Shown piece after piece: positions 3,226 through 44,665 of a stretch of 44,665 bases of DNA; the first letter of the stretch is position 1; each line of letters begins with the position of its first letter. The DNA comes from Acidobacteriota bacterium (GTDB taxonomy: Bacteria > Acidobacteriota > UBA4820 > DSQY01), in contig JAKAKG010000155.1 in NCBI GenBank assembly GCA_021813555.1, positions 1 through 44,665 on the forward strand, in the 5' to 3' direction. The translations under genes and the position numbers were made by a program. The notes below the pieces were generated by a model, which was not told the origin of the DNA, made no database searches, and worked only from the letters and a program-made list of their open reading frames with translations.

Positions 3226-4656
3226 TTAGGACAGCAACCCCTCCAGAACCTTGAAGAACTCGGGGAAGGACTTGCGGACACAGGACGGCTGCGCGATGCT
3301 CACCCCGGGGATGCGGAGGCCCAAAACGGCGAAGGCCATGGCCATGCGGTGGTCGCCTTGGGGATCGAGTTCGGCGCCGCGGCAGGCCACGGCGGGGACG
3401 ACGGTCATGCGGCCTTCTTGGAGAAGGACCGTGGCGCCCAGGCGGGAGAGGGCGTCGCTCAGGACGGCGAGGCGGTCGCTCTCCTTGAAGCGGAGGTGGG
3501 CGACGCCGCGGAAGGTGCTGGGCTCGGGGGCGAAGGCGGCCACGGCGGCGAGGGCGGGCACTAGGTCGGGGGTGCTGGAGCAATCGGCGTCCAGCCCCCG
3601 GAGGGGATGGCCCGCGACGGTGACTCCCGCCGTGCCCCTCTGAACCCGGCAGCCCATGTGTTCGAGAAGGTCCGGGAACACGGCGTCGCCCTGAAGAGAC
3701 TCGCCCCCGGTGCCTTCCACGAGGACCTCGCCGCCCGTGACGGCGGCGGCGGCCCAGAGGAAGGCCGCGCTGGAGGCATCGGGTTCCACGGCAAACCGGG
3801 CCGGCCGGTAGGACGCGGGCGCAACCTTCCAAAGGGATTCCTCCGGATGGCGCACCTCCACGCCGAAGCGCTCCATGACGGCGGCGGTCATGGCCGCGTA
3901 GGAGGCGGAGACGAGGTGCGGGGCGGCGAAGGCCACGGGGGCCCTTGCGAAAGGGGCGCCCAGGAGGAGGCCGGAGAGGAACTGGCTCGACACGCTTCCG
4001 GGAACGGCCACCTCGCCGCCGGCCCAGCGGTGCCCTTCCACGATGGCCGGCGGGTAGCCCTCCCGCTCGGCGTAGGAGACGCGGGCCCCGAGGGCGCGCA
4101 AGGGGGCTTCCAGGTCGGACACGGGGCGCTTGCGGAGCTGGTCCGCGCCGTCGAGGGTGAAGGCGCCCTCCATGGCGCCGCAGAGGCCCATGAGGAGGCG
4201 CAGGGTCGTGCCCGAGGCGCCGCAGGCCAGGGGCGCGCGCGGCGCGGCGAAGCGGCCGGAGGCGCCGGAAACCACCACCGTCCGGCTCGCCTCCTGTCCT
4301 CCGTCCTCTGCTCCTTGGAGTGAAAAGTGAGAAGTGAAACGTGAAACGGGAGGGACGGATGCAGTTTCGCCGCTCGGCTCCCTGCTCCCCCTTCCCTGCT
4401 CCCCGCTTCCGGCTTGCGGCTCCCCGCTCCCCGCTCCCCACTCCCGGACAACTGCCCCCAGCGCCCGCAAGCACTCCAGCGTGGCGGCCACGTCGTCCCC
4501 GTCTGGGAGGGGACCCACGCGCGAAGTGCCGCTGGCCAGCGCGGCGCAGATCAGGGCGCGATGGGCCAGCGATTTGGAGGGGGGAACTCTGACCTGGCCG
4601 CGCGCCGCGACGCCGGATGGGACGGAATAGGCATCGCGCCAGGCGTCTGTCATCAT
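3226..4656 (-). CDS. aroA: 3-phosphoshikimate 1-carboxyvinyltransferase (EPSP synthase) with internal repeat insertion
   Basis: Sixth step of the shikimate pathway: shikimate-3-phosphate plus PEP gives EPSP. The signatures are complete: PPSKSLAHRALICAALASG (25-43), ACGASGTTLRLLMGL, DGADQLRKRPVSDL, SSQFLSGLLLGAPFA, EPDASSAAFLW, HLRFKESDRLAVL, and DHRMAMAFAVLGLRIPG near the C-terminus. At 476 residues it exceeds the usual 425-440. The excess is residues 71-125, a Gly/Ser/Glu-rich segment (GAGSGEPQAGSGEQGRGSRE ... SRFTSHFSL) encoded by microrepeats in a surface loop between the first strands, with all conserved blocks intact. Two ATGs (4656, 4653) follow GGAGGGGAAGG; I chose the first. It is probably functional. 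Confidence 0.93.
   Translation of the reverse strand: MMTDAWRDAYSVPSGVAARGQVRVPPSKSLAHRALICAALASGTSRVGPLPDGDDVAATLECLRALGAVVREWGAGSGEPQAGSGEQGRGSREPSGETASVPPVSRFTSHFSLQGAEDGGQEASRTVVVSGASGRFAAPRAPLACGASGTTLRLLMGLCGAMEGAFTLDGADQLRKRPVSDLEAPLRALGARVSYAEREGYPPAIVEGHRWAGGEVAVPGSVSSQFLSGLLLGAPFARAPVAFAAPHLVSASYAAMTAAVMERFGVEVRHPEESLWKVAPASYRPARFAVEPDASSAAFLWAAAAVTGGEVLVEGTGGESLQGDAVFPDLLEHMGCRVQRGTAGVTVAGHPLRGLDADCSSTPDLVPALAAVAAFAPEPSTFRGVAHLRFKESDRLAVLSDALSRLGATVLLQEGRMTVVPAVACRGAELDPQGDHRMAMAFAVLGLRIPGVSIAQPSCVRKSFPEFFKVLEGLLS
4282..4446. repeat. microrepeat insertion inside aroA
   Basis: On the plus strand, 4318-4350 has repeated GTGAAA/GTGAGAA units (AGTGAAAAGTGAGAAGTGAA and on). The stretch 4377-4446 is an array of CTCCC(C)GCT-type units, with three near-identical CTCCCCG(C/A) copies at its end. 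The tract stays in frame with aroA. Related AGTGAAAAGTG text recurs in the rplV-rpsC spacer. Confidence 0.75.
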
Positions 4657-5725: not shown

Positions 5726-5979
5726 GGCTTGTCCGGCTTGGCGGGCAGGTGCCGCATGACGGCCTCCTTGAAGGAGGCGGGCACGTCAAGGGTGGGGAGG
5801 GTTTCCAGGGTGTCCACGAGGCGCTGCATGGCCTCGTACTCCTGGCGGCACCCCGCGCAGTGGGGCAGGTGCTCCTGCACCTCCGCCCATTCCTCGGGGG
5901 AGAAGTCGTTCTCGATGAACCTCGGGAGGAGGTCGAGGACTTTTCGGCAGGGCTTGCTGTCGCGGTCGGTCACGGGCAT
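5722..5979 (-). CDS. zinc-finger anti-sigma factor (ZAS/zf-HC2)
   Basis: A short soluble protein of 85 residues. The zinc-binding anti-sigma signature HLPHCAGC (H37-x3-C41-x2-C44) follows an upstream Cys at residue 11 and the helix LLPRFIENDFSPEEWAEVQEH. There is no membrane segment, so it would act in the cytoplasm, probably holding the ECF sigma factor encoded 9 nt upstream. The HxxxCxxC motif suggests redox or zinc sensing, as in RsrA/ChrR-type factors, but the signal cannot be read from the sequence. Confidence 0.85.
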   Translation of the reverse strand: MPVTDRDSKPCRKVLDLLPRFIENDFSPEEWAEVQEHLPHCAGCRQEYEAMQRLVDTLETLPTLDVPASFKEAVMRHLPAKPDKP

Positions 5980-5988
5980 CCTCCAGGC

Positions 5989-6579
5989 TCAGCGAAAGTC
6001 CTTCAGCTTCTCCATCAGGATCTGCCGCGCTCTGAAGATCCGGTTCTTCACCGTGCCGAGCGGCAGGCCCGTGATTTTGGCCATTTCCTCGTAGGACCTG
6101 TAGGCGAAGTGCCGCAGGATGACGAGCTCTCTGTACTCGGGCGGCAGGTCGTCCACGGCCTTCTGGACCTCGCCGAGAAGGGCCTTGTTGTGATACGCGT
6201 CCAAGGGGCTCAGGGTTGCGCTCTCCAGGGGCATTTCCATGGGGCTGCCGTCATCGGCCGTCTCGTGGATGGACGTGGTGGCCATGTGCTGGCGCCGGAT
6301 GTGGTCGATGGTGTGGTTGCTGGCGATCTTGTAGAGCCAGGTGGAAAACTTGAACTGGCCGTCGTAGCGTTCGAGGTTCTCGTAGACCTTGATGAAGACC
6401 TCTTGGGTGAGCTCGATGGCTTCGTCGTAGTGGTGGACCATGTGGAAGATGTAGGTGGCCAGCCCCTTTTGATAGCGCTCCACGAGGAGGGAGAAAGCCC
6501 CCTGGTCGCCCGCCAGAACGGCGTTCACGACCTCGGCATCGGTGAAGACCTTCTGTGCTCCTTGTACCGCCACGGTCAC
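5989..6579 (-). CDS. ECF-family RNA polymerase sigma factor (RpoE-like)
   Basis: A 196-residue sigma factor with only regions 2 and 4. Region 2 covers AFSLLVERYQKGLATYIFHM, DEAIELTQEVFIKVYENLERY and FSTWLYKIASNHTIDHIRRQ. Region 4 is the HTH LPPEYRELVILRHFAYRSYE, EMAKITGLPLGTVKNRIFRARQIL. The start is GTG at 6579 after GGGGAGG. It forms an operon with the anti-sigma factor and smpB, so it probably controls its own transcription. Its regulon is unknown. A TATAAA-like -10 lies at 6605-6600. Confidence 0.93.
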   Translation of the reverse strand: MTVAVQGAQKVFTDAEVVNAVLAGDQGAFSLLVERYQKGLATYIFHMVHHYDEAIELTQEVFIKVYENLERYDGQFKFSTWLYKIASNHTIDHIRRQHMATTSIHETADDGSPMEMPLESATLSPLDAYHNKALLGEVQKAVDDLPPEYRELVILRHFAYRSYEEMAKITGLPLGTVKNRIFRARQILMEKLKDFR

Positions 6580-35118: not shown

Positions 35119-35206
35119 GGAGAGATGGCCGAGTGGTCGAAGGCGGCGGTCTCGAAAACCGTTAACCCGCAAGGGTTCGGGGGTTCGAATCCCTCTCTCT
35201 CCGCCA
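35119..35206 (+). tRNA. tRNA-Ser (anticodon CGA)
   Basis: An 88-nt class II tRNA with CCA encoded. The acceptor GGAGAGA pairs with TCTCTCC, followed by G73 and CCA. The anticodon loop CTCGAAA gives anticodon CGA (serine, UCG). The variable arm AACCCGCAAGGGTT is long, as expected for tRNA-Ser, and the T arm has GGTTCGAAT. The island integrase starts its 3' end 7 bp downstream, so the tRNA 3' end is very likely the attachment site. Confidence 0.95.
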
Positions 35207-35213: not shown

Positions 35214-36326
35214 TCAACTACTTACGGCTGGTGAAGTGGACTGAGCCCCGACCGGGGCTTGGGCGGGATTGCAAGTAAATTGCAAGTCCGAATCGAGAAG
35301 GGCCACCGCTTGGTTCAAATGGGACTTGGCGAGGTGGGCATACCTGAGCACCATGGCGAGCGTGGTATGTCCGAGGAGCTCCTGGATCGTCACGAGGTCC
35401 GCTCCCGCCATGACCAGCCGGCTAGCGAACGTGTGCCGCAGGCTGTGCCACACCACGCCCGACAACTTCGCATCCTTGAGCGCCTTGTCCCAAAGGCGGC
35501 GAAATGGGCCATTGAAGCCGCCGCGAAAGTGAGGGAAGACCAGGACTTCCGGGTCAATCGCCTGAGGCAGGCTATCCAGGGCTGCCTTCGCCTTGTGATT
35601 CAGAGGTACACGCCGGGAGCGTTTCCCTTTGGCCTTCGCTGCCGTGACGGTCACCTCACCGCGGCGCCGGTCCACCTGGCCCCAGGTAAGGGACAGCATT
35701 TCTCCCAGCCGCAGCCCCGTATTCAGGGAAAAAGCGATGGCTGGTTTCAGTTGCGGCGCCGCCTTGTCCAGAAGCACGGCCTCCTCGTCAAGGGTGAGAA
35801 TCCGGTCCCGACGCGATTCGGGTTTGAAGAACTTGACGGCCAGGACGGGATTCTTCTCGCAGAGGCTCCATGAGGTGCTCAGTGAAAAGAGCCGCTTGAG
35901 CCGGGCGAGATCGTTGTCCACCGTCTTCTTGCTGGTCGTCTGCTCGCCCCGTTTTTCCGTGACCCTCGCCACCTTGTAGGCCTCTACATCGGCCGTGGAG
36001 ATTTGGCCAAGCGTCTTTCCCTTGAACCGAGGAAACGTCTTCCAGCGGTCCGCAAAGTAGGTGTCGTTGCGGTACGTGTTTGGGCGGGTGTTGATTTCCG
36101 ACCACTCCAGGAAGCGCTTCACCGCGTCTTCAAACTTGGTCCTCACCTCCTTCTTCCGATCCATATACCGTCCTTCCCGGATCTGGGTATGGATCTTCTC
36201 CAGGTAGGCCCTGGCTTCTCCTTTGAAGTTGGCGATGCGTCGGTGGTACCTACCGTCGACGTACCAAGAGAACTGCCAGCGACCATCTGGAAGCTGCTTC
36301 AACCCGCGCTCCTTGCGCTTCTCCAC
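35214..36326 (-). CDS. int: tyrosine recombinase/phage-type integrase
   Basis: Drives integration and excision of the island. 370 residues. An N-terminal arm-binding segment (RGLKQLPDGRWQFSWYVDGR) is followed by a SAM-like core-binding domain (about 65-165) and the catalytic domain with R206 (NTGLRLGEML), Lys at about 231-235, H294 and R297 (WHSLRHTFASRL), H320 (LLGHTTLAMV) and nucleophile Y329 (LRYAHL). All catalytic residues are present. The frame is open to 36494, but the GTG at 36326 has an excellent AAGGAGG 5 nt upstream. Its C-terminus faces the tRNA. Confidence 0.93.
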   Translation of the reverse strand: MEKRKERGLKQLPDGRWQFSWYVDGRYHRRIANFKGEARAYLEKIHTQIREGRYMDRKKEVRTKFEDAVKRFLEWSEINTRPNTYRNDTYFADRWKTFPRFKGKTLGQISTADVEAYKVARVTEKRGEQTTSKKTVDNDLARLKRLFSLSTSWSLCEKNPVLAVKFFKPESRRDRILTLDEEAVLLDKAAPQLKPAIAFSLNTGLRLGEMLSLTWGQVDRRRGEVTVTAAKAKGKRSRRVPLNHKAKAALDSLPQAIDPEVLVFPHFRGGFNGPFRRLWDKALKDAKLSGVVWHSLRHTFASRLVMAGADLVTIQELLGHTTLAMVLRYAHLAKSHLNQAVALLDSDLQFTCNPAQAPVGAQSTSPAVSS

Positions 36327-36396
36327 CGTTGCCTCCTTTCTTCTGTGGGAACCGATTCGCTCCATTAGGCGCCAGTTCCGGCCCAATTTCCAGGCC

Positions 36397-37710
36397 TCAC
36401 CAGCGCTCGTGGCCATCGCCGTATTCGTGAGGGTGCCGAGGGCGTTCTGCCCGGCGATCCTCTCGCTTCGGGAGGTCACGCCCACCGTGTCCACGGTGCG
36501 GTTCGCGCGTGGCGGCCTCCACCTGGCGCATTAGGGAAGTAACAAGCCCGCGGGCTTCGCCTCCGACGGCCCGCGTCAGGTCCCCCGAAGCGGCCCGGTC
36601 GGTCATGTCGCCTCGCAGGGAGTTTTCCTGCAAGCGGGCGCCAATTCGTACCGTGCCGCCTCGGCTGAGCCGGTCGGCCGACACGTCGCTGTGACTCAGG
36701 CCGTGGCTGTCCTTGAAGCTGAAATGATAGCGGCCCCGCTCATCCTGGCGGGCGGCCACACCCAGCTTGGACAAGCTCTCCTTGAACCCTTGGAGGTCTT
36801 TAGAGGTCCTCAGCGCTTCGGTGATTCGGCCGCGCAGGTCCCTCTGCCAGGCGTAGGGCCGGTTCTGTTCCGCCAAGAGCCGCCTTCGATAGCCCTCCGG
36901 GTCCTGCCGGAGCTGCTCTTTTTGACGGGCGAATTTTTCGACCAAGGCGTCCCGTTGGTAGCTCTCCCCGAGGCGGCCTTCTCGGGCAATCCGATTCTTT
37001 CCGTGAGCATCCTTCATGCTGTAGCTGAACTTCTCGCCCCGGACCCGCAGCTCCACTCCCTTCTCCTTGAGGCGAGCCTTGAATTCTTCTTCCGAGAAGG
37101 CTCGACGGCCTGCCTCCCGAATCCGGTTCTGCAGGTCAAGCTTCCAGGAATAGCGCTCGCCGCCTCGTTGGGCCTGGCGGATGAACTTGTCGGAGGGGCG
37201 ATGGGGATCCCGCACCCGGTCCAGCTCGCGCTGAATGCCATGGCTCCTCGCGAGCCTGTCGTTAATATCCCGAAGGCGTCCCAGGTTTTGCTTGTCATCG
37301 TGGTACTTCCGCCCGTCCAGGCCCGTGGCGTTCCAGACCACGTGCGCGTGCGGGTGCTCTTTCTCTCCGTGAACGACCACCAGGTACTCGTACTTGTCGG
37401 ATATGCCCACTGCCTTCGCCCACTCCTCCCCGTAGTCCCGGATTCGCCCGAAGTCCGGACCGCCTTCTTTCGTAACCATGTCCCCGAGGTCATTTCGTTC
37501 GAAGCTGATGGCCGCGTGGTAGTACTGGCGCCCGCCTTCTTGTCCGTAGTGGGCTCGCGTGCCCCGGAACTCTCGTTCGACCGACTCGCTGTCCCGGCCG
37601 GCCACGTTACCGCCAAGTTCGCGGACGCGGCTTTCGTCTCCCTTCTTGTCCAGGAGGTAGCCGATCATGCTGGCGCTCTGCGCCCCGTGCGAGATCTTCA
37701 GGACGGGCAT
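36397..37710 (-). CDS. MOBP-type relaxase (plasmid mobilisation)
   Basis: Nicks oriT and pilots the strand in conjugative transfer. 437 residues. The N-terminal relaxase domain has a candidate catalytic Tyr18 (SMIGYLLDK), then YYHAAISFERNDLG, and the metal-binding histidines in VVVHGEKEHPHAHVVWNATG (H114, H119, H121, H123). The C-terminal half is charged and helical, with two similar segments (YSWKLDLQNRIREAGRRAFS and YAWQRDLRGRITEALRTSKD), probably a duplicated domain. It follows mobC by 3 nt. No coupling protein or mating-pair genes are visible, so it would use a helper's transfer apparatus. Confidence 0.85.
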   Translation of the reverse strand: MPVLKISHGAQSASMIGYLLDKKGDESRVRELGGNVAGRDSESVEREFRGTRAHYGQEGGRQYYHAAISFERNDLGDMVTKEGGPDFGRIRDYGEEWAKAVGISDKYEYLVVVHGEKEHPHAHVVWNATGLDGRKYHDDKQNLGRLRDINDRLARSHGIQRELDRVRDPHRPSDKFIRQAQRGGERYSWKLDLQNRIREAGRRAFSEEEFKARLKEKGVELRVRGEKFSYSMKDAHGKNRIAREGRLGESYQRDALVEKFARQKEQLRQDPEGYRRRLLAEQNRPYAWQRDLRGRITEALRTSKDLQGFKESLSKLGVAARQDERGRYHFSFKDSHGLSHSDVSADRLSRGGTVRIGARLQENSLRGDMTDRAASGDLTRAVGGEARGLVTSLMRQVEAATREPHRGHGGRDLPKREDRRAERPRHPHEYGDGHERW

Positions 37711-37713
37711 GGC

Positions 37714-38043
37714 TCAGTTCAGGATGGCTTTCAGAAGTTCGCTGAGTTCGACCCGCAGGGCCTCAACCGCTCTGGGGTCGGCGTGCCCCAGGTTGGCCTG
37801 ATGGGCGAGCTGGTTGAGATTGCCCGCAAGGCTCCGGACGGCACGGTACACATCTTCTGGGAGCCGAGGGACCGCCTTGAATCGCTCTTCCAGGGCCAGC
37901 CCGCGGAGCAGGCTCGCTGGCTTCTTGTTGACGATCTGGGCCTGCTTCTGCAGTCGCCCATACTCCTCAGGCGTAAATCGGACGTGGACCCGATTGGGAC
38001 GCTTCCTCTGGTTCTGACACTCAGCGCTCGTCGTCTCGGTCAT
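37714..38043 (-). CDS. mobC: MobC-family mobilisation accessory protein
   Basis: 109 residues. An N-terminal ribbon-helix-helix-like segment (RPNRVHVRFTPEEYGRLQKQ AQIVNKKPASLLRGLAL) and the MobC motif LAGNLNQLAHQANLG with a helical C-terminus (DPRAVEALRVELSELLKAIL). MobC helps the relaxase melt oriT and often represses the mob operon. I chose the ATG at 38043 behind GAGGAGAGG. It lies right beside the proposed oriT. Confidence 0.85.
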   Translation of the reverse strand: MTETTSAECQNQRKRPNRVHVRFTPEEYGRLQKQAQIVNKKPASLLRGLALEERFKAVPRLPEDVYRAVRSLAGNLNQLAHQANLGHADPRAVEALRVELSELLKAILN

Positions 38044-38060
38044 GCCACCTCTCCTCGTGT

Positions 38061-38160
38061 CGTTAGGGTGTCGGGGCGAAGCCCTGACATTCACCCGAAA
38101 GAGCGGGGCCAACCCCCGCGAACCGGGTGGCAACGGCGCGCCCCCGGGCGCCCGTTGCGG
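38061..38160. other. oriT: candidate origin of transfer (oriT/bom)
   Basis: Directly upstream of mobC lie three nested or adjacent hairpins: TGTCGGGGC-GAA-GCCCTGACA (38069-38089, one mismatch); CACCCG...CGGGTG (38092-38129) enclosing GCGGGG...CCCCGC (38103-38119); and CAACGGCGCGCCC...GGGCGCCCGTTG (38131-38157, one bulge). The segment GGGTGTCGGGGCGAAGCCCT then GACA closely resembles the bom element of pBR322/ColE1 as I remember it (GGGTGTCGGGGCGCAGCCAT then GACC). Location, structure and similarity all point to the relaxase target. Confidence 0.65.
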
Positions 38161-38251
38161 TGCTTGCGATACCTACTTCGGCGGTCTCCCCGCCGATTTT
38201 CGGGCTGCTTTTGATTCCCTGTCGGGGAGGCATTCGGGCGGTGGCGCTCAT
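38063..38251 (-). CDS. possible small protein overlapping the oriT region (uncertain)
   Basis: A frame of 62 codons starts at the ATG at 38251 (or GTG 38257, overlapping the helicase-gene stop as GTGA), with GGGAGAG upstream. It reads MSATARMPPRQGIKSSPKIG and ends GECQGFAPTP. No known domain. It runs through all the oriT hairpins, which could by itself explain its composition, so it may not be a gene. Confidence 0.25.
   Translation of the reverse strand: MSATARMPPRQGIKSSPKIGGETAEVGIASTATGARGRAVATRFAGVGPALSGECQGFAPTP
38178..38200 (+). terminator. Rho-independent-like terminator reading rightward
   Basis: TCGGCGG-TCTCC-CCGCCGA, a perfect 7-bp stem and 5-nt loop, is followed by TTTT on the plus strand. 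No plus-strand gene precedes it within the island, so it may block antisense transcription or be part of the structured transfer region. Confidence 0.4.
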
Positions 38252-38253
38252 GG

Positions 38254-39798
38254 TCACTCTCCCTTAGGCCCCCCTTCCCGGGCCGCCACCGCCGCCACCG
38301 CCAAGAGTTTGTTGGGCTTACAGGCGCCACCAGCCGCCACCGCTCCCCTTTCGGTGGCGCCTCGGGTGGCGGCACAAGTGCTTTGGAATGAGGCCGGTGG
38401 CGGCGGTGGCGGCTCAGGCGGGAGATACCTGGAGAAGGCATCCCCGAAGTCGCTCTGCTGGTAACCCCGGCATGTAACACCTTCCTGCTTCCACTTCACG
38501 GGTGAGATGCCGAAGGGATGGAGGAGGCCCGCCATTTGTTGGGCGCTGATCGGTCCTCTGCTCTTCCAGTCGGGCCACAGGCGTTCCTCCATCGTGTGGA
38601 GGTGGTGGAGGATTTCGTCGGACCCGAGCTTGTTCCTTCCGCTGGCGCTGAATAGGCCTCTCAGGTCCTGCAGAAGCGCGATGCCCACGGAGATCTCCTG
38701 GGCAGCCTGTTCAGACAAGCGGCAGGCGCTCTCCCGCGCCCGCCGGGGCCATTCCTGCCCTGCAAGGTCGGCGATGGCGAGGAGGGGTCTCCAGTTGTCC
38801 CGTGTCCGGTCCCGGGTGATTCCCTCGGGGATCTCTGGTTCGGAAAACCTGAGGGCTTCCAGGTGGTCCAGGGCCCACCTCGCCGCCATGCTCGTCAGGT
38901 CCTCCATCTCGGTGAGCCGGTGGAGTTGAAGGCGCTCGATGCGCTCGCTGTGGGCCCTGCGTCGCATTCGGATGGTGATGGCTCGGTCCGCCAGTGTCCC
39001 TGGCATTTCTCCGATGAGGGCCACCGCCTTGGGCGTCCACGTACTGAACATGCAGACCTGGAACTCGTCGCCCACCACGCGGGTCACATAGGCCTGGCTT
39101 CTCATGTGGCCGCTGTTGAGGATGCCCCGGAGTCCCTCGGAGTCGCCGAGAAATGTGTCGGCTTCGTCCAGGAGGAGGGTCGGCTTGAAGTAGTCCGTCA
39201 CACGGAAGACCGCGGACGGCGTGATATTGGCCGAAGTTAGAGGCTTGGGGACCAAGGCACTGAGCAGCGCAAGAGCCGTGCTCTTGCCGCAGCCTTTGTC
39301 GGGGCTCGTGAGGGCCAGGATGGGGGAGATCTCGAAGGCGTCGTGAGCGTGGGCGAAGAGACTCCACAGGCAGAGGGCCACCACTTGGTCGGTCTCGATG
39401 GCGAGGTAGCGCTTGACCGTCTGTTCGAGGCGAGTCAGCAAGGCAGCACCGTCCACAGACTCTGGCCAGGGCTCCGGATCCTTGAAGCCCACGGCGCTGC
39501 CCGCCTTGGGGTCGGTCGCCGGCCGCAACGCGGGGGGCATGACCGAATCCACGATCCGGCCCGGGCTCGCGAACCCCAGCGCGCGGAGGCGCTTCACCGC
39601 CCCCTCGCGCGCCAACTCGCGAGAGGTGTCGCTCATCCCACTAAGCGCCTCCTTGAAGTGGTCCAGGGCCGAGAGCATCTGCGCCGAGCCGGAGCTCTCG
39701 GTAAGGTGCTCCAGCTGCGACATGGCCTCCTCCGGTGTGGACGCCACCTTGTTCTCCATCGAAGCCAGCGCCTCGATGTTGCTCGGCGGGGCACTCAT
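38254..39798 (-). CDS. DUF3631-type P-loop ATPase/helicase (probable replication protein)
   Basis: 514 residues. A P-loop NTPase core has Walker A SPDKGCGKSTALALLSAL (165-182) and Walker B PTLLLDEADTFLGDSEGL (206-223), then ILNSGHMRSQAYVTRVV, an arginine-containing GTLADRAITIRMRRR and the DUF3631 region (WRPLLAIADLAGQEWPRRAR, LGSDEILHHLHTMEERLWPD W). Such proteins are found in plasmids and islands, often as primase-helicase parts; no primase active site is visible here. The Pro/Ala/Gly-rich C-terminus (from about 455) is encoded by nested inverted repeats. The ATG at 39798 has GGGGAG 5 nt upstream. A 10-bp-phased array overlaps the start. Confidence 0.75.
   Translation of the reverse strand: MSAPPSNIEALASMENKVASTPEEAMSQLEHLTESSGSAQMLSALDHFKEALSGMSDTSRELAREGAVKRLRALGFASPGRIVDSVMPPALRPATDPKAGSAVGFKDPEPWPESVDGAALLTRLEQTVKRYLAIETDQVVALCLWSLFAHAHDAFEISPILALTSPDKGCGKSTALALLSALVPKPLTSANITPSAVFRVTDYFKPTLLLDEADTFLGDSEGLRGILNSGHMRSQAYVTRVVGDEFQVCMFSTWTPKAVALIGEMPGTLADRAITIRMRRRAHSERIERLQLHRLTEMEDLTSMAARWALDHLEALRFSEPEIPEGITRDRTRDNWRPLLAIADLAGQEWPRRARESACRLSEQAAQEISVGIALLQDLRGLFSASGRNKLGSDEILHHLHTMEERLWPDWKSRGPISAQQMAGLLHPFGISPVKWKQEGVTCRGYQQSDFGDAFSRYLPPEPPPPPPASFQSTCAATRGATERGAVAAGGACKPNKLLAVAAVAAREGGPKGE
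38282..38413. repeat. nested long inverted repeats at the 3' end of the helicase gene
   Basis: Outer arms 38282-38300 (GCCGCCACCGCCGCCACCG) and 38395-38413 are perfect 19-bp inverted repeats with 94 bp between. Inside, GGCGCCACC (38323-38331) pairs with GGTGGCGCC (38353-38361). The DNA or RNA could fold into a large branched hairpin. Confidence 0.75.
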
Positions 39799-39910
39799 GG
39801 GCACTCCCCGGCCCCAATGAGCACTTCTGAGGAGAAGAGGAGACTCCCGTAAACTCCCGTAAAGTAGATGGCACTAGATAGCACTCCCGGGCACTCTTGG
39901 GCAGTAGAAT
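39791..39910. repeat. 10-bp-phased GCACTCCCGG-like array (candidate iterons)
   Basis: Units recur in exact 10-bp register: GCACTCATGG (39791), GCACTCCCCG (39801), GCACTTCTGA (39821), AGACTCCCGT (39841), AAACTCCCGT (39851), GCACTAGATA (39871), GCACTCCCGG (39881), GCACTCTTGG (39891), GCAGTAGAAT (39901). The units at 39811, 39831 and 39861 are degenerate. The array overlaps the first codons of the helicase gene and abuts an AT-rich patch at 39907-39936. Confidence 0.7.
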
Positions 39911-39990
39911 TAACTATATTAAACATAGCTGTTATCTCCTATCATCGCGGGCGAATATACACTCCTGGACGCCCGTTGTCCAGCGGTTTT
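39907..39990. promoter_or_regulatory. AT-rich patch and hairpin upstream of the helicase gene
   Basis: AGAATTAACTATATTAAACA with flanks (39907-39936) is strikingly AT-rich for this genome. It contains TATAGT (minus, 39918-39913), a possible -10 for the helicase gene, and could serve as an unwinding element. A hairpin, CTGGAC-N7-GTCCAG (39965-39983) with T5 at 39987-39991 on the plus strand, follows. The rest of the 271-bp spacer to 40069 shows nothing else. Confidence 0.4.
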
Positions 39991-40069
39991 TCCTCCGCAT
40001 TCTTGAGAAGGGGCAAGAAACGGAAAGTCGGTACCAAGAAACTGCCGGAACTTTGGTCCCGGGCCTGCC

Positions 40070-41059
40070 CTAGCTACCCACCGAACCCGACCAGTACGTC
40101 ACCCGTGCATCGCCCAGCGCCATGTTGGCGCCTGTGTCCAGATTCCAATTGAAGAGAACACCTGGGAGCTCTGCACTCTGGGTCTTGTCCATGATCGCCT
40201 TAGCGTCTCGGACATCATGGTCCATGGATCGCCACGCCTGGAGAACGTTCTCGACGGCTCGGGCGAAACCGATTTCAGCAAAAGGAGGTCGGAGGTCATG
40301 GTTCATCGGGTCCGGCACTGCATCAAAGAAGTCACGAACCTCTTCCGGCTGATTTCTCCTAAGTCGGTCTGGAGATGAGTAGGTCAAGCTGGAGAGCCCT
40401 GGAATCTGGCGCGAGAGTGCGAACGCCAGCTTGCTGTCCGAAGAAACGTCGAGCAGGGCTGCGTAGGTCCCGCGCCACTGTGCGGGGTCTGGATTGGGAT
40501 CTAGCTCCCCATAGACCTCCTTCAGGAGTCCGAACCAGAACCCTAGGACCCAGGGGAAAGCATGCTGTTCAGGCAAGGCTGATAGCTTGAGCTGGTGGAC
40601 GAAGTGGGTACCTTGAAGGTCGCAGCCTCGCGTCTCTGAAAACAGCAAGGCATCCTGCACCATTTCGCACACGCGATGACGGACTGGAGCCGTGTGATAC
40701 GGCCCCACAATGGCCTGAACAATGGGATGTATCGTCGCGTCTGTCACGCAGTGGGCCACATAGCCTGCCAACCAAGCCAGGCGAGCGTTTCCTTCAGGTC
40801 TGCCCACGAGATTGCTCACGCCCAATTCGAGGGACCCCTGAAGACCCATGCCATTGGTCTTCAAGTAGTGCATCCGATCGGCCCACTGTTTGTCGGGACC
40901 AATAGCCATCGCGTAGGGCAGGTCGGGACTCACCGAACCGAGCAAGAGAAAAGGTGTCGCCGATTGCAGGAACTTGGCCAGACTTGATAAGCCGGGATCC
41001 GAGTGTGCCCTCTCCAGAGCAGCATCCACGACGAGCAGATGGGTAATTGCGCCGGCCAT
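40070..41059 (-). CDS. zinc-dependent phospholipase C family protein (possible effector)
   Basis: 329 residues. The fold of the Zn_dep_PLPC family is suggested by the N-terminal MAGAITHLLVVDAAL (H7), LLGSVSPDLPYAMAIGPDKQ (D46), MHYLKTNG (H64) and the central ARLAWLAGYVAHCVTDATIH PIVQ (H103, D107, H111), then GPYHTAPVRHRVCEMVQDAL. These are the His/Asp positions expected to hold zinc. Family members cleave phospholipid head groups, or are uncharacterised relatives. No signal peptide is evident, so it would act from the cytoplasm. GGAGGAAGG precedes the ATG. It follows the cyclase-like gene by 28 bp, a probable operon. Base composition is less G+C-rich than the core genome. Confidence 0.7.
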   Translation of the reverse strand: MAGAITHLLVVDAALERAHSDPGLSSLAKFLQSATPFLLLGSVSPDLPYAMAIGPDKQWADRMHYLKTNGMGLQGSLELGVSNLVGRPEGNARLAWLAGYVAHCVTDATIHPIVQAIVGPYHTAPVRHRVCEMVQDALLFSETRGCDLQGTHFVHQLKLSALPEQHAFPWVLGFWFGLLKEVYGELDPNPDPAQWRGTYAALLDVSSDSKLAFALSRQIPGLSSLTYSSPDRLRRNQPEEVRDFFDAVPDPMNHDLRPPFAEIGFARAVENVLQAWRSMDHDVRDAKAIMDKTQSAELPGVLFNWNLDTGANMALGDARVTYWSGSVGS

Positions 41060-41087: not shown

Positions 41088-41840
41088 CTAGTGCGACTCC
41101 TCAGGGGGTTCCTTTCGCCTAGCCTTCACAAGTTCGAAATACATCCTTGTGTTATCTACTTTCTCTTGGGCTGATGGGGCAATCGGCCACCGGGCGAGAA
41201 ACCTAAGAAAGTCCTCTTCTCGAACGTGAAGCGGCCATGGGAGGGCATAGCTGGGGAGAACCTTGTGCTCGGCCAACGGCACGTCGTAACGAAGGAAAAA
41301 CTGCTCCTGGAAATCTAGGTCTGGTCCGTCAGTTTGATCCAGAAGACTGGTCGAGGTAGGAGTCGTACACACCCCGATCCACTTAGGCTTCTCATACCAT
41401 GCCTTGGCTTCCAGGAATGCGTCTCCCAGGACCATGACGTCGGAGTACCAATATGAGCCGTGGCCAAGCACGCCCCTGAAGGCTATGGGAAGGACAGGAT
41501 CCGAAATCCAATCGCTGGTGTTCCTGATGATCAGGTCAGCCAAGCGAATCAACGCACGCCTCGGATCGCACTGCAGCTCTACGGTCGAGAACAGAACGAC
41601 TGTGTCTTGAAAAAGCCTGGCCTTGAGTCCCAATGCCGGCGTATCGACCCCAATCTGCGCCATGAGTCCCTGGTGAAACTCGTCGGACCTACAAGATCCT
41701 TCCATATCCAGCAAGATCTTGGACCAGAAGTCCACAAATAGTCTCGGATTGCTCTCCCTAGTGGCTTTCCAGGCATTAGATGTGCCCATGCCATCCATCA
41801 GCGCGATCACGCCGCTCTGGACCAAACGAGCCTCATTCAC
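41088..41840 (-). CDS. class III nucleotidyl-cyclase-like protein (Pycsar-cyclase-like)
   Basis: About 250 residues. The pattern is that of stand-alone cyclase-fold proteins: first strand GVIALMDGMGTSNAW with metal-type D16; the hairpin LFQDTVVLFSTVE with D79; then PIAFRGVLGHGSYWYSDVMV LGDAFLEAKAWYEKPKWIGV (119-157), which resembles the RGxxxxGEFY...GPAxxEAxxWYE block of uncharacterised bacterial cyclase relatives; and FFLRYDVPLA, YALPWP near the C-terminus. Both metal Asp are kept, so activity is possible; product is unknown. GTG 41840 is the preferred start (GGGAGAG upstream); TTG 41879 is an alternative. The assignment rests on motif memory, not a search. Visibly lower G+C than the core genome supports transfer. 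Confidence 0.55.
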   Translation of the reverse strand: MNEARLVQSGVIALMDGMGTSNAWKATRESNPRLFVDFWSKILLDMEGSCRSDEFHQGLMAQIGVDTPALGLKARLFQDTVVLFSTVELQCDPRRALIRLADLIIRNTSDWISDPVLPIAFRGVLGHGSYWYSDVMVLGDAFLEAKAWYEKPKWIGVCTTPTSTSLLDQTDGPDLDFQEQFFLRYDVPLAEHKVLPSYALPWPLHVREEDFLRFLARWPIAPSAQEKVDNTRMYFELVKARRKEPPEESH

Positions 41841-41939
41841 TCTCTTCGCTCTCCCATTTGCTGCGGCACGATCTCGCAAGCTGGTCCATTGTCGGGAGTG
41901 ACATTCTGGCTGCGCCTCTTGATTCAGTGCTGATTCTCT

Positions 41940-44665
41940 CTAGCGTTCTGAACTCGGCCGGGGTTCAACGGCACCCGGTTCGTAGGTCAGCCCGAAAATC
42001 TTATCCTTGAGCCACCGGCGGAAGGACTCATTGTCGCTGAACTGCTTGAATAGTTCAGTCTGGTCGGAAAGCAGGTCCGTCATAACCCGCCCGAGGGCCT
42101 TGTCGTGCTCGATGCGGGCGTTCTGGCGGTCCGAGTTCGCCTTGGCGTTCTGGTAGGCTCGGTCCGCGGCCACCTTGGCGGGAATCTCCTCCGTGATGAC
42201 CTTACGGATCTTGTCAGCGTCCTTCCATTGGATGTTCCCGAAGTGGTCGTTGAACTCCCGCAAAATGTTGCTCAGGCGGTCCAGCTCTGGCTCTGGTCTG
42301 TGGCCGCCCTCGCCGATGGGGACGGGGCCAATCTCCCCGTCTTGGTCAACCAGGGCAATGGACAGAGCGGCCTTGACCTCGACCCGATAGCTATCCATGT
42401 CGATAGTCTTCAGGATGCCCTTCGCCAAGTCGCCGTCATCGGGTGACGGCAGCTTGGGAATGAGGAAGTGGAGGAACAGAGACAGCTTCTCCCAGGAAGC
42501 ATTGGTGAAGGGCAGGATGGAGGCGAGGAACCCGTAAGTTCTCTCGAAGGATTTTGCCCTCCCCTTGAATTCCACCTGCCCGTCCACATCCAGCGCATGG
42601 GAGTAGACGGCAGCGCACGAGTCGAGGATGGGGTCGAGCTTCTCACGCGCAGCGCCGGTCAGGTAGAGGGCGACGAACTGCTCCACCTGGTCCCAGGCAT
42701 AAACCTGTGCTCCGTCCAGGTCCGCCTTCAGGTTGTGCAGCTTGTTGGGATCGGTCTCCTCACCGAGGACAGTTGTGCGGTAGAAGGGCTCGAAGGCCCT
42801 TTGGATCGTATCGGCATCATTCACGAAATCGAGGATGAATGTGTCGCGCTTTCGGGGATGGGCGCGGTTGAGCCGGGATAGGGTCTGGACCGCCTTCACC
42901 CCCGACAGGACCTTGTCGACATACATCGTGTGCAGGAGGGGCTCGTCATAGCCCGTTTGAAACTTGTCCGCCACGATCAGGAACCGGTAGGGATCCTCCT
43001 GGATGCGGTCGGGGATCTCGGAGCTCGGGAACCCATTGAGGGACGCCTCGGTCACCTGAACCCCGCCCCATTCATGCTCACCGGAGAAAGCAACGATGGC
43101 CTTGTAGGGGCTCTTGCGCTCCTCCAGATAAGCCACAACTGCATGGTAGTACCGGATGGCCTTCTCGATGCCACCCGTGACCACCATGGCCCTCGCCTGC
43201 CCGCCCAACTTCTGTCTGGCGATCACCTGCTCGTGGAAATGGTCCACCATGATCTCGGCCTTGAGCCGAATAGCGTGGTCGTGGGACTCGACGAAACGGC
43301 GGAGCTTTTTCTGAGCCTTCTTCGTGTCGAACTGGGGGTCGTCCCCCACGGTCTTGATAAGGCGGTAATAGCTCGCCACCGGCGTGTAGCTGCGAAGCAC
43401 ATCGAGGATGAACCCTTCCTCGATGGCCTGCTTCATGGTGTAGCTGTGGAAGGGGCGGTGCTTCACCTTGTCGCCGACCTGGCAAGGGTCGCCGAAGAGC
43501 TCCAAGGTCTTGTTCTTTGGGGTGGCTGTGAAAGCAAAGTAGCTCGCGTTTGAGAGCATCTTCCGGGACTCCATCAGGCGGTTGATGGTGTCCTCCACGT
43601 CCTCCTCTTCCTCGGCTCCGCCATGGGTAGCCAGGGCGATGTTCATTTGCGCTGCCGCGCGCCCCCCCTGGCTGGAGTGCGCCTCGTCGATGACGATGGC
43701 GAAGGCTCTGCCCCTATGCTCGTTGCCGATCTCGTCGAGGACATACGGAAACTTTTGCACCGTCGTGATGATGATCTTCTTGCCCGACCGGATGAAATCC
43801 CGGAGCTGGCCTGAGCCCTCCGTGACGGCCCCCACCACGGCGCTTACCTGGGCGAACTGCTTGATAGTGTCTCGGATCTGCTTGTCGAGGACCTTGCGGT
43901 CCGTGACGACGATGATGGAGTCGAAGGTCTCCTTCCCGGCAGCCTTTAGCCCTACGAGCTGGTGGACAAGCCAGGCGATGGAGTTGCTCTTACCGCTCCC
44001 GGCGGAGTGCTGGATGAGATACCGGTGCCCCGCACCTCTCTGGCCGGCGTCCGCCAACAGCGCCCTCACAACCCCGAGTTGGTGGTAGCGGGGGAAGATC
44101 TGGTCCTTCTTTCTTCGCCCGGTCCTTTCGTCCCTGCGTTCAACAAGTTGGGCGTAGTTCTCCAAAATATCGGTCAGGCCACGAGGGGTGAGGACTTCTT
44201 TCCAGAGGTAATCGGTCTTGAGGCCGTCGGGATTGGGTGGATTGCCCGCGCCGTCGTTGTCGCCCTTGTTGAAGGGGAGAAACCAGGAATCTTTCCCCTG
44301 AAGGCGCGTGCACATCCAGACTTCCTGGTCGTCCACGGCGAAGTGTACGGCGCAGCGGCCGAACTGAAAGAGCAGCTCCCGCGGATCGCGGTCCCGTTTG
44401 TACTGCGTGATGGCATCGTCCACGCGCTGTTTGGTCAGGAGATTCTTGAGCTCGAAGGTGGCTACGGGCAGGCCGTTGATGAAGAGGGCCATGTCCAGGG
44501 CAAGCTGGGTCTCGTCTTTGCTGTACCTGAGTTGGCGGGTCACGCTGAAGAGGTTTGCCCGGAATAGCTCCTCAGCCCTCTTGTTGCCTGGCGTGGGCGT
44601 CCCGTAAAACAGGGTCACCGAGGCGGGCCCGTGTTGGATGCCCTTCCTCAGAACGCGGATGATCC
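41940..44665 (-). CDS. hsdR: type I restriction endonuclease subunit R, HsdR (5' end off right edge)
   Basis: At least 908 residues visible; the frame stays open to the window end. The nuclease domain has Asp/Glu-Leu-Lys chemistry: DMALFINGLPVATFELKN. The translocase motor has Walker A IQHSAGSGKSNSIAWLVHQL, motif II IVIDEAHSSQGG, motif III FTATPKNKTLELFG, and VADKFQTGYDEPLLHTMYVD with LSRLNRAHPRKRDTFILDFV. The C-terminal helical region would bind the methylase core. It cuts DNA far from the recognition site in complex with HsdM and HsdS, neither of which lies in the window; they are probably upstream. The frame reads RKGIQHGPASVTLFYG before the GTG at 44618, showing that this GTG is internal. 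Confidence 0.95.
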   Translation of the reverse strand, partial: IIRVLRKGIQHGPASVTLFYGTPTPGNKRAEELFRANLFSVTRQLRYSKDETQLALDMALFINGLPVATFELKNLLTKQRVDDAITQYKRDRDPRELLFQFGRCAVHFAVDDQEVWMCTRLQGKDSWFLPFNKGDNDGAGNPPNPDGLKTDYLWKEVLTPRGLTDILENYAQLVERRDERTGRRKKDQIFPRYHQLGVVRALLADAGQRGAGHRYLIQHSAGSGKSNSIAWLVHQLVGLKAAGKETFDSIIVVTDRKVLDKQIRDTIKQFAQVSAVVGAVTEGSGQLRDFIRSGKKIIITTVQKFPYVLDEIGNEHRGRAFAIVIDEAHSSQGGRAAAQMNIALATHGGAEEEEDVEDTINRLMESRKMLSNASYFAFTATPKNKTLELFGDPCQVGDKVKHRPFHSYTMKQAIEEGFILDVLRSYTPVASYYRLIKTVGDDPQFDTKKAQKKLRRFVESHDHAIRLKAEIMVDHFHEQVIARQKLGGQARAMVVTGGIEKAIRYYHAVVAYLEERKSPYKAIVAFSGEHEWGGVQVTEASLNGFPSSEIPDRIQEDPYRFLIVADKFQTGYDEPLLHTMYVDKVLSGVKAVQTLSRLNRAHPRKRDTFILDFVNDADTIQRAFEPFYRTTVLGEETDPNKLHNLKADLDGAQVYAWDQVEQFVALYLTGAAREKLDPILDSCAAVYSHALDVDGQVEFKGRAKSFERTYGFLASILPFTNASWEKLSLFLHFLIPKLPSPDDGDLAKGILKTIDMDSYRVEVKAALSIALVDQDGEIGPVPIGEGGHRPEPELDRLSNILREFNDHFGNIQWKDADKIRKVITEEIPAKVAADRAYQNAKANSDRQNARIEHDKALGRVMTDLLSDQTELFKQFSDNESFRRWLKDKIFGLTYEPGAVEPRPSSER

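Follow-up and report, generated by a model that had tools for sequence, protein, structure and literature searches.

A 10-bp-phased repeat array ahead of a DUF3631 gene, proposed as an RDF-type operator in a mobilizable island of an Acidobacteriota bacterium

The sites of RDF (excisionase-type) proteins are direct repeats one helix turn apart that are bound cooperatively and head to tail, and some of these proteins regulate promoters too (PMC7498355, PMC11963761). For Apl of phage 186 there are five such sites at att and another seven in the pR-pL interval, and the Cox sites of P2-like phages are likewise direct repeats at att and between promoters (PMC7498355). RdfS of ICEMlSym binds attP and promoters, coordinating excision with the expression of rdf and int (PMC11963761). 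DUF3631 proteins are known from RepAM, reported to be responsible for the autonomous replication of actinobacterial pMEA300; RepAM ICEs such as pMEA300 are tRNA-targeted and carry int and a DUF3631 gene, sometimes beside a Prim-Pol (PMC3218068).

We analysed a stretch of 44,665 nucleotides (the window) that holds part of an island; the nearest named relatives are Acidobacteria metagenome bins. From a tRNA-Ser(CGA) gene (35119-35206) onwards, the minus strand carries genes for an integrase, a MobA/VirD2 relaxase, a NikA/MobC-like protein and a DUF3631 protein, followed by the repeat array studied here and, beyond it, also on the minus strand, by a Zn-dependent phospholipase-C-like gene, a family-less ORF and an hsdR cut by the contig end (Table 1). 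The island resembles the RepAM ICEs in its tRNA target and in its int and DUF3631 genes. It differs from them in bearing a MOB relaxase and a NikA-like protein where those elements have FtsK-type transfer, and in having neither a primase nor a recognised excisionase gene beside the helicase.

Table 1. Features of the window discussed in the text (positions are those of the window unless stated otherwise)
Feature	Position	Strand	Remarks
attL core, 3' part of tRNA-Ser(CGA) + AGAA	35150..35210	+	61-bp identity to attR C116:6101-6161 (L023)
Tyrosine integrase	35214..36494	-	actual start is probably closer to 36360
Left integrase arm-type site TTGCAAGTAAATTGCAAGT	35269..35287	.	two 8-mers 11 bp apart; differs from array motif
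MobA/VirD2-type relaxase	36397..37710	-	
NikA-like / MobC relaxosome protein	37714..38133	-	ATG start probably near 38044
DUF3631 (RepAM-type) ATPase gene	38254..39798	-	Pfam E 4e-43 and homologues; heads the proposed array-controlled operon
10-bp-phased array, units GGCACTNNNN	39791..39920	.	11/13 slots match; proposed RDF-type operator
AT-rich patch	39900..39949	.	36% GC; promoter-side edge of array
Promoter-like site TGGACA-17-TATATT	39954..39982	-	5' of array, facing helicase operon; consensus match only
Weak terminator-like hairpin	40045..40062	-	would part preceding gene from operon; consensus match only
hsdR	41940..44618	-	cut by contig end

Autocorrelation of the segment 39791-39936, a check proposed in the sequence-only reading of this DNA, reaches 0.49, 0.37, 0.43 and 0.45 at lags 10, 20, 30 and 40, with other lags at about 0.25. 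This is the strongest 10-bp period of the whole window by autocorrelation, and none of 5000 dinucleotide shuffles matched the summed autocorrelation score of the array, either at period 10 or at any period of 5-21. When slots at 39791, 39801 and so on to 39911 were compared with the unit pattern [GAT][CAG]A[CG]T, 11 of the 13 were found to fit (the exceptions are 39811 and 39831), versus at most 3 of 13 anywhere in the rest of the 44.6-kb window on both strands. The units in 10-bp register that had been claimed are therefore real, and two further claims hold as well, namely that the array adjoins an AT-rich spot (39900-39949 is the lowest-GC 50-bp stretch in the island part of the window) and that it overlaps the helicase start, as its first two units overlap the RBS and the ATG (39798, minus strand) with which the DUF3631 gene starts. 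As to unit and location, the repeats were rightly recognised, but GGCACTNNNN is a better unit than the GCACTCCCGG first given (ACT is the most constant part), and the motif is not confined to a single place.

The promoter-like site (39982-39954) has 10 of 12 consensus matches, with 0.1 such sites expected. Together with the terminator-like hairpin, it suggests that the DUF3631, nikA, relaxase and integrase genes make up one operon that begins at the array. Between DUF3631 and nikA, 38045-38253 is non-coding and holds GC-rich inverted repeats, making it a candidate oriT.

A search pattern of three units (GCACTNNNNNGCACTNNNNNGCACT), derived from the array alone and allowing one mismatch, matched the 3.3-Mb genome at the array and at C116:6053 only, on another contig than the window; the reversed control gave no match. 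C116:6053 adjoins a second copy of the 3' half of tRNA-Ser, with 61 bp identical to the attL core and no full tRNA there, and we therefore read the site on C116 as the attR of the island at tRNA-Ser. Five units at this attR lie in 10-bp phase at 6043, 6053, 6063, 6073 and 6083 (6043-6092), stopping 9 bp short of the att core, and two more are found at 5979 and 5989 (5979-5998). A weight matrix built from the array units alone scores 23.7 in the attR arm versus a maximum of 17.2 among 1000 shuffles, and in the other scanned loci nothing outside the array scores as high as the two attR clusters. The pattern CACTNNNGGGCACTC, composed after attR was known, has exactly four occurrences genome-wide, all in one orientation (39792, 39882, C116:5980 and C116:6064). 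By these searches the motif is found at only two places in the genome: at the head of the operon, with promoter-like DNA on one side and the DUF3631 start codon on the other, and in the attR arm. Here the units lie on the arm away from int, at L023 5979-6092, between the distal integrase arm-type site (L023 ~5951-5969) and the core at 6101. In lambda, the Xis sites of attR occupy the corresponding position.

Beside attR, the minus strand of C116 bears hsdM, a GmrSD-like gene and hsdS, which complement the hsdR of the window; hsdM, with its start at L023 5744, is the first gene left of attR. From the att identity, the gene order and the complementary hsd genes, contigs C230 and C116 are most likely opposite ends of a single island. 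We found no contig bridging C230 and C116 with the N-terminus of hsdR, so that a gap between hsdS and hsdR remains. No clean empty site was found either: in G007, of the same genus, the left flank is 96% identical up to the tRNA anticodon stem, where other DNA follows, and this is therefore not a clean empty site. In this genome (G007:C72, L109, ~4056-4260) tRNA-Ser is broken after CTCGAAAACC, and the DNA that follows contains an arm-type repeat, GTTGCACGAAAAGTTGCAC, which indicates that another element used the site and that the tRNA gene is not intact there.

The integrase itself appears to have sites of another kind. In four islands that have related integrases and are known at both ends (L057 at tRNA-Cys, L059 at tRNA-Phe, L060 at tRNA-Ser and L061 at tRNA-Pro), a pair of 8-mers 11 bp apart is found on both arms, with a sequence that differs among the four, and such direct-repeat pairs fit as integrase arm-type sites. 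The island studied here has a pair of this kind on its left arm (Table 1) and a weaker counterpart on its right arm (CTGCAAGAAAACTGTTAGT, L023 ~5951-5969), at the same distance from the core as in the sisters. These proposed integrase sites are of the TTGCAAGT type, distinct from the array. The left arm is without array-type units (best matrix scores 5.3 and 8.1), and the N-terminus of the integrase contains an arm-binding-like segment, KERGLKQLPDGRWQFSW, as read by eye. Since a distinct 11-bp repeat pair is present on both arms of the four sisters, we regard the integrase sites as separate from the array motif. When the right-arm DNA of the four sister islands was compared with the regions upstream of their island operons, no match was found, the only motifs common to att and promoter being the integrase arm repeats; in the island studied here, the right arm matches the array best. 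A second island sharing the array motif between att and promoter was found neither among the four sisters nor by a pattern search of 396 genomes, so that conservation between islands gives the reading no support. The four islands are compact (~6.3-6.8 kb), and at least some of them bear DNA-replication-type genes, e.g. the Toprim/AAA protein of L057.

On balance, we consider the array probably to be an operator for a small cooperative protein of the RDF/excisionase type that acts both at attR and at the operon promoter. The arrangement is that of an RDF operator in that the direct repeats are about one helix turn apart, one set of sites lies in an att arm, flanked by the distal integrase arm site and the core, and a second set lies at the promoter of the element (a consensus match only). 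Each 10-bp unit would take one protomer, and the protomers would line up head to tail along one face of the helix. At attR the bound protein would bend the P arm and thereby let the integrase excise the island, and at the array it would repress or tune transcription of the replication, mobilisation and integrase genes, perhaps affecting translation also through the units over the RBS. The level of one protein could thus set both excision and operon expression. The repeats, their two locations and their distinctness from the integrase sites are observed; we infer that the same protein occupies both locations, and likewise its role in excision and the direction of regulation.

Most likely this is a known kind of circuit, a dual-target excisionase operator, appearing here as a variant in an uncharacterised mobilizable island. 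A close likeness in site arrangement, as distinct from protein sequence, is to the operators of 186 Apl, which share helix-turn repeats (10-11 bp) with an att set and a longer promoter set (five and seven there, 5+2 and 11 here; PMC7498355). Apl serves a lysis-lysogeny switch, whereas the array stands before an operon that comprises the helicase, mobilisation and integrase genes of a mobilizable island. ICEMlSym RdfS shares the combination of attP and promoters under one RDF, but its sites lack a consensus (PMC11963761), whereas here a clear repeated GGCACTNNNN unit lies ahead of a replication-type gene. P2-type Cox sites are alike in layout, but their units have another sequence and belong to another type of element in another host phylum; no homologue of Cox was observed in the island. 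If the reading is right, it offers a sequence-level view of the way in which a mobilizable defence island of uncultured Acidobacteria may couple its exit from the chromosome to the expression of its helicase, relaxase and integrase, and carries over to an integrative mobilizable element the dual-purpose excisionase logic known from phages 186 and P2. Searching islands for helix-phased repeats that a promoter has in common with an att arm would then be a simple way to find such circuits.

No cognate RDF gene was recognised in the assembled island, none of whose 94 small ORFs has a Pfam match; the contig gap inside the island could hide the gene. It is conceivable, though rather improbable, that the array-binding protein lies outside the known RDF families, e.g. 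that NikA/MobC serves as excisionase and operon regulator and ties together excision, mobilisation and replication. Four sister Acidobacteria islands (L083, L080, L085 and L072) share the order DUF3631, nikA, relaxase and, where seen, a related integrase beside a tRNA, but their operons, read to the head at these four loci, start with a small HTH gene and then a presumed primase gene before DUF3631, and have no 10-bp array. The HTH protein of L083, the one tested, matches the NCBIfam 'excisionase family'. The presumed primase gene has no NCBIfam match and was read by eye from a C-terminal motif and by analogy to the Prim-Pol beside RepAM. The island in the window has neither gene at its operon head, and no homologue of the HTH_17 protein of the sisters was found in its genome. 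HTH_17 genes elsewhere in the genome were considered as candidates and set aside, as they sit in ordinary chromosomal loci.

The sequence-only reading had suggested a search for the array upstream of DUF3631 homologues. None of nine homologues has it next to the DUF3631 gene (all belong to the same bacterial family, with identities of 62-69% for most and 43% for one; none closer than 69% is available), and it is also absent upstream of the HTH gene of the sisters wherever that gene was found. Across 396 genomes of the phylum, the three-unit pattern was seen only in this array and in one simple tandem repeat of another genome. No attR was found within ~55 kb for G002:C40, the island whose integrase is the closest (69%). 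Among genome contigs, DUF3631 homologues are limited to the same Acidobacteria group; viral contigs have none, a plasmid collection has distant ones in three records, and a PDB sequence search with the DUF3631 alignment returned nothing.

The main rival, which we hold to be unlikely, is a transcription regulator other than an excisionase that controls both operons of the island, with the array serving DUF3631-nikA-relaxase-integrase and the attR copies serving hsdM-GmrSD-hsdS-hsdR. The attR is indeed the DNA upstream of hsdM, so that such a regulator would produce an identical distribution of units, and the units are oriented alike relative to transcription at both places. However, those at attR lie ~235-350 bp upstream of the hsdM start, inside the arm-to-core interval and ending 9 bp from the att core, with no promoter-like site found at them. 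Binding of the array by the integrase itself, which would then repress its own operon, would account for units at attR and for int being in the operon, and lambda has contiguous arm-type sites about 10 bp apart. We regard it as very unlikely, given that the other 11-bp repeat pair, which is on both arms and varies from one integrase to the next, suits the role of arm-type site here and in the sisters, and that the array motif is missing from the left arm, where the matrix reaches no more than the two low scores given above.

That the array is an iteron-type replication origin, where the excised island would have its AT-rich patch opened by array-bound DUF3631 protein or a partner, agrees with tandem repeats adjoining a RepAM/DUF3631 replication gene, with the patch beside them and with the precedent of autonomous replication in pMEA300 (PMC3218068). 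Yet such an origin does not predict the motif at attR in the position of an excisionase, and on this ground it is not favoured; moreover, the repeats are not kept beside homologous initiator genes (9/9 DUF3631 homologues lack the array) and no DnaA-box-like match was found near the array. Iterons are typically about 17-22 bp, and contiguous 10-bp units are short for them. We judge an origin quite unlikely, and of the two possibilities raised from the sequence alone, an origin used after excision or a cooperative operator, it is the operator that finds support in the same motif and phase at attR, a site outside the stretch which that reading covered. An RNA-level element, i.e. a riboswitch-like or attenuator structure in the mRNA 5' leader, would suit the position of the array between promoter-like site and start codon, but is highly improbable: the RNA folds no better than shuffles (z = +1.58), belongs to no Rfam family and has no inverted repeats, and RNA structure at the array was rejected on these grounds; the 10-bp helical phasing and the attR copies are, besides, signals of a DNA type.

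The island bears what its genes indicate to be defence cargo. Type I restriction-modification genes occupy L023 1294-5744 and the hsdR of the window, and the GmrSD-like gene between hsdM and hsdS has 'Orf5' as its best PADLOC model. Within this restriction island, a 263-aa ORF (41088-41879, minus strand) adjoins the Zn-dependent phospholipase-C-like gene (40070-41059). It has no match in Pfam, PHROGs, NCBIfam, PADLOC or PDB, and its predicted structure is of low confidence (pLDDT 38); by eye, segments such as VIALMDGMGTSNAW, FQDTVVLFS and RGVLGHGSYWYSD are reminiscent of class III nucleotide cyclases (Pycsar-like), and the two genes could form a defence pair. Elsewhere in the window, 4319-4447 contains heptamer (7-bp) and other short-period tandem repeats (e.g. 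GCTCCCC x 10), and similar short periods occur in the loci of several relatives and in sister genomes.
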